From positions 1-64,000 of the forward strand of contig NZ_JAKFUM010000007.1 in assembly GCF_021732705.1 (NCBI RefSeq): a stretch of DNA of 64,000 nucleotides, given 5' to 3'. The first letter of the stretch is position 1. Each line of letters starts with the position of its first letter. The notes beneath the pieces are model-generated. The model saw only the letters and a program-made list of their open reading frames with translations. It searched no databases and was not told the origin of the DNA. Below, piece after piece: positions 52,713 to 56,238 of this stretch. Origin of the DNA: Nevskia sp. (lineage in GTDB: Bacteria; Pseudomonadota; Gammaproteobacteria; Nevskiales; Nevskiaceae). The translations under genes and the position numbers were made by a program.

Positions 52713-52801
52713 CGTCGTCTGAATTCACCGGGATTGATTGTCCGAATGGTGAACGGCGGCTCACTCTGGCATTCTTTGCGCACCGCAACATCGTGAATCG
52801 C

Positions 52802-53281
52802 ATGAACGACATCCGCGTCATCAAGAAGTATCCGAACCGTCGCCTGTACGACACCAACGTCAGCCGCTACATCACGCTGGAAGAGGTGCGCCAGCTCGTG
52901 TTGAGCAACGTGAAGTTCAGGGTCGAGGACAAGCGGACGAAGGAAGACATCACGCGCAGCATCCTGCTGCAGGTGATTTCCGAGCAGGAAGAAGGCGGCA
53001 ATCCGATTTTCAGTTCGGAACTGCTGACCCACATCATCCGCTTCTATGGCGATCCGATGCAGCCGAGCATCAGCCGTTATCTGGAGATGTCGCTGCAGTT
53101 GTTCCTGCAGCAGCAGACCCATTTCAGCGAGCAGCTGAAGGACCTGCTGGGTCAGGCTCAGCAACCCGTCCAGCGTCTGAAGGAACTGGCCGAACGTCAG
53201 GTACCGATCTGGCGCACGGTCCGCAAGGAGTTCCTGAAGAACCTGACGCGCGCCAAGGCCGCGACGGCTGGCCGCGAGTGA
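52802..53281 (+). CDS. phaR: Polyhydroxyalkanoate synthesis repressor PhaR
   Basis: IRVIKKYPNRRLYDTNVSRYITLEEVRQLV. Confidence 0.95.
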   Translation: MNDIRVIKKYPNRRLYDTNVSRYITLEEVRQLVLSNVKFRVEDKRTKEDITRSILLQVISEQEEGGNPIFSSELLTHIIRFYGDPMQPSISRYLEMSLQLFLQQQTHFSEQLKDLLGQAQQPVQRLKELAERQVPIWRTVRKEFLKNLTRAKAATAGRE

Positions 53282-53436: not shown

Positions 53437-53465
53437 TTGACAGTCCGAAATCACGCACTTATACT
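53437..53465 (+). promoter_or_regulatory. Sigma70-type promoter, near-consensus
   Basis: TTGACA (53437-53442), 17-bp spacer, TATACT (53460-53465). Confidence 0.85.
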
Positions 53466-53472
53466 GCACCGC

Positions 53473-53592
53473 AACAATTACCCAACAATGAAAAGGCGCA
53501 GCAAATTATTATTATCTGCGCCTTGAATGTCTCCTCCAGAAAGGCCTAGCGCCTTTCTCGCACCTTGCCCCCTGCAACAGGGGGTTTTTTTT
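53473..53592 (+). ncRNA. Candidate intergenic small RNA (~120 nt)
   Basis: Begins ~8 nt after the -10; hairpins AAGGCGCAG/CTGCGCCTT (53493-53524) and GAAAGGC/GCCTTTC (53539-53557); ends in a terminator; contains unpaired TCTCCTCC. Confidence 0.7.
53568..53592 (+). terminator. Rho-independent terminator
   Basis: CCCCCTG-CAA-CAGGGGG followed by T8. Confidence 0.95.
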
Positions 53593-53726: not shown

Positions 53727-55826
53727 TCAGGCGACGTCGACCGCCTTCATCGACAGGCGGATGCGCCCCTGCTTGTCGATTTCGAGGACCTTGACCTTGA
53801 CGGTCTGGCCTTCGCTGAGCTCGTCCGCCACGTTCTCGACGCGCTTCTCGGAGATCTGCGAGATGTGCACGAGGCCGTCCTTGCCCGGCAGGATCGTCAC
53901 GAAGGCGCCGAAATCCATCAGCTTGGCCACCTTGCCTTCGTAGACTTCGCCGACCTGCACTTCGCGGGTCAGCGCTTCGATGCGCGCGATGGCGGCCTTC
54001 GCGGCATCGCCGTCGATGGCGGCAATGCGAATCGTGCCGTCATCGTCGATGTCGATCGAGGTACCGGTCTCTTCGGTGATCGAGCGGATGGTGACGCCGC
54101 CCTTGCCGATGATGTCGCGGATCTTGTCCGGGTGGATCTTGATCGTCGTGATGCGCGGCGCGAACTCCGACATCTCGGCACGCGGCTTGGCAATCGTCGC
54201 GGTCATCGATTCGAGGATGTGCAGACGACCCGCGCGGGCCTGTTCCAGCGCCTGCTTCATGATCTCGCCGGTGATGCCGGTGATCTTGATGTCCATCTGC
54301 AGCGCGGTGACGCCAGAAGTCGTGCCGATGACCTTGAAGTCCATGTCGCCGAGGTGATCCTCGTCGCCAAGGATGTCGGTCAGCACGGCCCAGCGGTCGC
54401 CGTCCTTGATCAGGCCCATCGCGACACCGGCCACCGGCGCCTTGATCGGCACGCCGGCGTCCATCAGCGCCAGGCTGGCGGCGCAGGCCGAGGCCATCGA
54501 CGACGAACCGTTCGATTCGGTGACTTCGGCAACGACGCGGACGACGTACGGGAAATCCTTGACCAGATCCGGCATCACGGCAGCGACGCCGCGCTTGGCC
54601 AGACGGCCGTGGCCGATTTCGCGGCGCTTCGGCGCGTTCAGGCGGCCGGTTTCGCCGACGCAGTACGGCGGGAAGTTGTAATGCAGCATGAACTGATCGC
54701 GGGACTCGCCCTGCAGGTTCTCGATCAGCTGCGCGTCCTTGCCGGTACCGAGCGTGACCACGCCCAGAACCTGCGTCTCGCCGCGGGTGAACACCGACGA
54801 ACCGTGGGTACGCGGCAGGATGCCGACGCCCATGTCGAGGCGGCGCACGGTCTTGTTGTCGCGACCGTCGATGCGCGGCGCGCCCGATAGAATCCGGTCT
54901 CGGACGACCTTGTATTCGAGATCGCCGAACGCAGTCTTGACCTTCGCGGCCTCGAACTTCGGCGTCTCGCCTGCGGCCAGCGCGGCAATCGCGGCGTCGC
55001 GAACCGCACGGACAGCATCCTGACGAGCCTGCTTGTCGGTGATCGCGTACGCGGCGGTGACATCGGCCGTGTAGGCTTCGAGTGCAGCGGTCAGGTCGCC
55101 GTTGGTGGCCGGCGCAGTCCACGCCTGCTTCGGCTTGCCGCACTCGGCGACGAGTTCATTGATCGCCTTGATCGCGGCCTGCATTTGCTCGTGGCCGTAC
55201 AGGACGGCGCCGAGCATAACGTCTTCCGACAGCTGCTGGGCTTCCGATTCGACCATCAGCACCGCATCGGACGTGCCGGCGACGACGAGGTCGAGCTTCG
55301 ATTCCTCGAGCTGCTTGTGGGTCGGGTTCAGCACGTACGCGCCATCGATGTAGCCGACGCGCGCGGCGCCGATCGGGCCCTGGAACGGCACGCCGGCCAG
55401 CGACATGGCGCAGGACGCGCCGAGCAGCGCCGGGATGTCGCCGTCGATCTGCGGATTCGACGACATGACCATCGCAACGACCTGAATCTCGTTGTAATAG
55501 CCTTCCGGGAATAGCGGACGCATCGGCCGGTCGATCAGGCGCGAGGTCAGCGTTTCCTTTTCGGTCGGACGGCCTTCACGCTTGAAGAAACCACCCGGGA
55601 TACGGCCACCCGCGTAGGTGCGCTCCATGTAATCGACGGTCAGCGGGAAGAAATCCTGACCTTCCTTCGCATCCTTCTTGGCGACGACGGTGACCATGAC
55701 CACGGTCTGATCCACCGTGACGATGACCGCGGCGGACGCCTGACGGGCGATCGCGCCGGTTTCGAAGGTGACGGTGTGGGCACCGTACTGGAATGACTTT
55801 TTGATGGGCGCTACGGGATAGACCAT
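53727..55826 (-). CDS. pnp: Polyribonucleotide nucleotidyltransferase
   Basis: Two RNase PH domains, KH ([17 protein letters not shown]) and S1 domains. Confidence 0.98.
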
Positions 55827-55874: not shown

Positions 55875-56150
55875 TTAGCGACGCAGACCGAGTTCGGCGA
55901 TCAGCTTGGAGTAACGGCCTTCGTCTTCGCGCTTCAGGTAATCCAGCAGCTTGCGGCGCTGGTTGACCATCATGGTCAGACCGCGGCGCGAGTGATGATC
56001 CTTCTTGTTGGCTTCGAAGTGCGGCTGCAGCGTCTTGAGCCGCTCCGTGATCAGGGCAACCTGCACTTCCGGCGAGCCGGTGTCGCCTTTGGCGCGGGCA
56101 AACTTCGAGACAACAGCGGACTTCTGTTCAACGGAAAGAGACATCATCAA
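55875..56150 (-). CDS. rpsO: 30S ribosomal protein S15 (start may be the second Met)
   Basis: [56 protein letters not shown]. Confidence 0.98.
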
Positions 56151-56238
56151 ACTCCAATAATTGCTTTACGGTTCTGTAAGCCCGCTATTGTAGCGGTCGT
56201 GACCATGGGTCACAACCGCACCGTTCGGGGGCGGAGGT

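Follow-up and report, generated by a model that had tools for sequence, protein, structure and literature searches.

Background

The Betaproteobacteria toxic small RNAs (sRNAs), Rfam family RF02278, correspond to the double-hairpin RNAs NcS03, NcS05, NcS27 and NcS62 of Burkholderia cenocepacia and to bdhR1, and inhibit the growth of E. coli when cloned. The functions ascribed to PhaR lie chiefly in the control of phasins and other PHB genes. Its binding by PHB granules is established for other species. The RF02278 relatives NcS27 and S17 act on ribosome-binding sites (RBSs) in mRNAs of transport and carbon genes (PMC5688073, PMC11722255, PMC10987360). A block of RBSs and of carbon use is known for RF02278 relatives (PMC5688073, PMC11722255). 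No upstream regulator of the "toxic" or double-hairpin sRNAs of Betaproteobacteria was found in the open-access literature.

Sites recognised by PhaR were described in several organisms. The consensus for Ralstonia (R. eutropha) is YTKNTGCRNYGCANMAR (PMC12849132). In Herbaspirillum, the orthologue PhbF is a repressor whose footprint covers TG[N]TGC[N]3GCAA (PMC3206438). PhaR of Sinorhizobium meliloti binds CAATTGTGCACCGCAGCATTA and represses the sRNA gene mmgR (PMC12542648), the one known case of an sRNA under PhaR control (PMC12542648, PMC8401924).

A small RNA gene between phaR and pnp

The locus considered here (53437-53592) was located between phaR and the convergent gene pnp in a window of 64,000 nucleotides (the whole stretch of Nevskia sp. 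DNA that was analysed; Table 1). It was encoded on the strand of phaR, 156 bp 3' of the stop codon of that gene. The PhaR orthologue of the window carried both the DNA-binding and the PHB-accumulation domains (PF07879, PF05233). Further along, a candidate S15 (rpsO) leader was noticed at 56088-56192 on the minus strand (RF00114, 28.5 bits, under the cut-off of 39.5).

Table 1. Coordinates of the features at the phaR-pnp locus (positions in the window)
Feature	Position	Strand	Basis or remark
CGCACCGCAACA, same motif as the predicted operator, predicted autoregulation	52779..52790	+	start codon of phaR follows after 11 bp
phaR, encoding a 159-aa transcriptional regulator that senses PHB	52802..53281	+	PF07879 E 6e-28, PF05233 E 1e-14; TIGR01848 147.8 bits, above cut-off
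Sigma-70-type promoter TTGACA-N17-TATACT	53437..53465	+	11/12 consensus match; TTGACA 53437-53442, TATACT 53460-53465
TGCACCGCAACA, predicted PhaR operator	53465..53476	+	covers the final base of the -10 box together with the start region
Small RNA (predicted), about 119-121 nt	53472..53592	+	fold and conserved copies; 5' end inferred from the promoter
Hairpin I (5' hairpin), 9 bp, AU-rich loop region	53493..53524	+	fold; sequence variable among copies
Unpaired GUCUCCUCC / GTCTCCTCC, anti-Shine-Dalgarno seed	53529..53537	+	fold
Hairpin II, AGAAAGGC-CUAGC-GCCUUUCU, 8 bp	53538..53558	+	fold and covariation
Conserved linker CGCACCUU, GCA invariant	53559..53566	+	core alignment
Intrinsic terminator, GC hairpin and T8	53567..53592	+	hairpin 53567-53585, T8 53585-53592
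pnp, polynucleotide phosphorylase, convergent neighbour	53727..55826	-	ORF list; kept as neighbour in relatives

A preliminary description, made from the sequence of the window, had proposed a small RNA at this place, and most of its anatomy was recovered. The promoter was found exactly as described, and the fold contained the 9-bp 5' hairpin with its AU-rich loop region, the unpaired GUCUCCUCC and the terminator with its T8; the middle hairpin was also present, its stem counting eight base pairs and not the seven first reported. The claim that no open reading frame explains the locus held as well, the ORF list containing none of at least 60 aa within 53437-53592. The predicted RNA folded at -40.8 kcal/mol (z -4.4) and none of 200 shuffled sequences was as stable. 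Its general form was GUCUCCUCCAGAAAGGC...GCCUUUCUCGCACCUU-terminator, and its U-rich 3' end was the sole feature seen that bears on Hfq-type trans-acting sRNAs.

The observation of a small RNA at 53437-53592 is confirmed as real. Three features had escaped the preliminary description: the motif at 53465-53476, its counterpart in the phaR promoter (52779-52790), and two further copies of the RNA in the same genome.

Conservation and genomic copies

The two additional copies were detected with blastn and matched only from the anti-Shine-Dalgarno (anti-SD) segment onward, bringing the total to three. Among relatives, the RNA was present in 82 out of 100. Its conserved core was defined as GUCUCCUCC, hairpin II and the linker, and a covariance model of this 44-nt core (R1) displayed matches in 80 of the 85 genomes of the order and in eight of the 274 genomes of the class, the window's own included. 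A search of a plasmid collection yielded no match to the RNA, and a short pattern scan of genome contigs yielded betaproteobacterial matches which, among the matches listed and upon inspection, were unlike it.

Within the core, CUCCUCC was invariant across 33 distinct sequences. Relatives had been named beforehand as the place to look for compensatory changes, and these were indeed encountered in hairpin II: all eight pairs were paired in 100% of cells and both sides had changed in each of the four varying pairs, against 0.5 in shuffles (the full-length alignment A1 misaligned the terminators and pair counts were not taken from it). The sequence of hairpin I was unrelated between genera, yet a stable hairpin was retained (median z -2.4 over 79 copies). 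Divergent second or third tandem copies (AGTCTCCTTGAGAAAGGC) with a degenerate anti-SD seed were observed at three loci of a single genus.

The preliminary description would have been abandoned had promoter, hairpins and terminator not been conserved in related genomes; all of them were. A chance origin of the locus is ruled out because of this conservation across the order: hairpins arisen by chance and devoid of function, a reading with practically no probability left, are refuted by it, and are also opposed by the fold (z -4.4) and the covariation.

Most loci with enough flanking sequence had phaR and pnp on either side of the RNA, and in G128 and G202, both far relatives, it was still found about 0.8 kb 3' of phaR. 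This position, 156 bp past the stop codon and on the same strand, could be taken to indicate a 3' untranslated region of phaR which ends in a terminator and has a conserved structure, rather than a free sRNA. Such an interpretation is very improbable, for a promoter of its own was conserved between phaR and the RNA, and copies away from phaR, those of C22 and C2 in the window's own genome among them, displayed the same promoter motif. The locus is a real and conserved sRNA gene, the product of which probably acts by blocking ribosome-binding sites.

Relation to RF02278 and other described RNAs

The preliminary description had likened the C-rich anti-SD segment to the logic of post-transcriptional sRNAs of other proteobacteria and had assigned no family. 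This reading is supported as far as it goes; the nearest family is RF02278 (bdhR1, S17), and the Rfam scan it had proposed left the RNA unassigned. RF02278 provided the best match, at 19.4 bits against a gathering cut-off of 50. Nothing in the window's own genome exceeded the RF02278 cut-off, and among 14 scanned loci (copies and relatives) no Rfam family other than a tRNA reached its cut-off.

It is nevertheless worth weighing whether the RNA is a divergent RF02278 member instead of a separate family. The match covered the right span (model positions 1-64 of 64), and the order of parts was alike: the core opened with an unpaired GUCUCCUCC which preceded the first, non-terminator hairpin, the second hairpin was the intrinsic terminator, and several copies occurred per genome (three here). 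The hairpins themselves, however, were of different sequence. RF02278 members display a UCCACC/GGUGGA-like stem with a CU-rich loop, as opposed to AGAAAGGC/GCCUUUCU with loop CUAGC in the window RNA, and they lack the linker CGCACCUU. Members above cut-off were found in genomes of Trinickia, Delftia, Variovorax, Polaromonas and Zoogloea and had the form GUCUCCUCCACCCUCC...GGUGGAUU-terminator. Model R1 scored 12-17 bits on RF02278 loci versus 39-73 bits on its own copies. Together with the low score of the RF02278 model, these differences make membership unlikely. The window RNA is, by its sequence, distinct from RF02278 and, judging from its anatomy, alike in its working. It may thus be viewed as a putative sister family, distinguished by a hairpin II of its own, within a broad group of anti-SD double-hairpin RNAs (RF02278, NcS27, S17).

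S17 of Bordetella pertussis also displays an anti-RBS segment (Site 1) which opens a short conserved core, and represses transporters and metabolic genes; in contrast to the locus described here, its gene has a glycosyltransferase gene and coq7 as neighbours on either side (PMC11722255). Read back, the published S17 primer gives TGGTGGATTTAGCCCGAG, an RF02278-type hairpin unlike that of the window RNA. MmgR of S. meliloti is comparable in another respect, being an sRNA repressed by PhaR (AniA) via the near-identical site GTGCACCGCAGCA (PMC12542648, PMC8401924). It differs in its alphaproteobacterial origin and in the role described for it, the tuning of phasin expression; its likeness to the window RNA is drawn from the published description.

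RF02278 matches of 41-49 bits, below the cut-off, were also noticed in gammaproteobacterial genomes devoid of PhaR and look like genuine relatives; those at seven loci (42-49 bits) shared the promoter TTGAC-N16/17-(A/T)TATTAGA. Since this promoter is different, the wider sRNA group is not always linked to PhaR; the sequences suggest a different regulator of the same sRNA group in these genomes.

A predicted PhaR operator at both promoters

The segment 53461-53477, which includes TGCACCGCAACA, displayed two mismatches in 17 positions to the R. eutropha consensus YTKNTGCRNYGCANMAR, within the three that were allowed for a PhaR-regulon site at a promoter. Both mismatches fell in the left arm, which is weak. 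TGCACCGCAACA also matches TGC[N]3GCAA, the sequence footprinted with PhbF of H. seropedicae. Only nine places in the 64-kb window differed from the Ralstonia PhaR consensus by no more than two mismatches; the promoters of phaR and of the sRNA, separated by about 690 bp, accounted for two of them.

All three genomic copies of the RNA, including those away from phaR, displayed TGCNNNGCAACA in an identical position. TGCN3GCARCA was found upstream of 90 of the 118 RNA copies (107 loci) versus a shuffled mean of 0.4 (maximum 3), and the core motif lay within 100 bp upstream of phaR in 54 of 66 relatives versus a shuffled mean of 2.0; as the copies share ancestry, shuffle comparisons overstate significance. 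In 88 of the 118 copies, the motif kept an exact register relative to the -10 box. Consensus columns outside the motif selection agreed with the Ralstonia consensus throughout (R, Y, M and A, each 87/87); the promoter spacer, like most flanking columns, contained near-zero information. TTGAC was kept at 17-bp spacing in 72 of the 87 relatives having an in-register operator, with no conservation of the spacer sequence. Some of the 28 copies without the motif use another promoter element. Copies without a clear operator at five loci shared an upstream element of about TT(G/T)ACAT(G/A)(T/A)AGGTAAGTTA.

TGCRNYGCA was also encountered upstream of RF02278 members of Trinickia, Zoogloea, Variovorax, Polaromonas, Delftia and Aquitalea. 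Outside the order, it preceded four of eight RF02278- or R1-type matches in PhaR-bearing genomes versus one of 20 in the others (Fisher p 0.015), the one exception without a PhaR match belonging to the same genus as a PhaR bearer.

TGCNNNGCAACA occurred at 84 places in the genome. Seventeen stretches were inspected, in which most occurrences not belonging to the sRNA were inside genes and none was tied to PHB. One further occurrence (locus L190, 2041-2064; G000:C13:33840-33863) displayed TATAGT followed by TGCACTGCAACA; the sequence after it resembled, by eye, a glycine riboswitch with a gcvT-like gene, and the motif, on its sequence, is a possible further PhaR site or due to chance.

The phasin-like proteins of the genome and its relatives (PF09361 and TIGR01841 matches) were lysine/alanine-rich. 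The exact core motif was not found in the promoters of the sole phasin-like gene found in the genome (C3:377064) or of its relatives, so that no second classic target besides phaR anchors the PhaR regulon here. These promoters neither support nor exclude PhaR control.

The RNA could also be a genuine anti-SD sRNA with no tie to PHB, the conserved TGCACYGCAACA being bound by another regulator or reflecting a constraint of promoter opening. The absence of the motif from 28 of 118 copies and from the phasin-like gene of the genus speaks for this, as does the motif copy before an unrelated-looking leader (C13:33852). It is countered by the occurrence of the same site upstream of phaR in most relatives, by its identity with PhaR sites measured in three other organisms, and by the class-wide tendency of such sRNAs to have the motif nearby in genomes with PhaR, which render this alternative rather improbable.

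Proposed mechanism and candidate targets

The preferred reading, which we hold to be quite probable as a whole, is that of an anti-SD trans-acting sRNA repressed by PhaR, freed by PHB granules and damping other carbon routes. It is founded on the sequence and structure of the RNA, on its conservation and copy number, and on the match to the operator in each of the two promoters. The locus would encode an independently transcribed, terminator-ended small RNA. PhaR from the neighbouring gene would bind TGCACCGCAACA across the -10/+1 region and repress transcription; as PHB granules form, PhaR would be titrated away and the sRNA transcribed. The unpaired CUCCUCC would then pair with the Shine-Dalgarno sequence GGAGGAGA of target mRNAs and block ribosome loading, so that mRNAs of carbon metabolism, for other uptake, catabolism or storage routes, would be turned down. 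The sRNA thus probably signals lower use of other carbon during carbon storage. Expression, PhaR binding, the sign of regulation and the targets are what we infer for this locus, and the sign (repression), taken by analogy, is not certain, since PhaR of R. eutropha is able to activate as well.

The pattern GGAGGAGA-N4-11-ATG matched the genome 15 times (one gene being matched twice and one frame being very short) versus none for the reversed pattern; the matches are candidates only, because strong Shine-Dalgarno sequences are expected to match anyway. They included two PQQ-dependent dehydrogenase-like proteins, a wax ester synthase/diacylglycerol acyltransferase, a pyruvate phosphate dikinase-domain protein, a CoA transferase, an alpha/beta hydrolase and a TetR regulator.

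Significance

The RNA family described here is absent from Rfam 15, yet it is found in nearly every sampled genome of an order, and no report of its control by PhaR was found in the open-access literature. In PHB-making Betaproteobacteria, the chances are about even that PhaR has anti-SD double-hairpin sRNAs (those of the window family and some of RF02278) as a conserved output, which granule formation releases and which shuts down the translation of competing carbon-uptake and storage genes. Such an output would explain why these RNAs rise in glucose medium and in starvation and why their overexpression slows growth. If this is true, the PhaR operator addresses what switches the "toxic" or double-hairpin sRNAs on and, lying in sRNA promoters, would tie carbon storage directly to the post-transcriptional control of carbon use.
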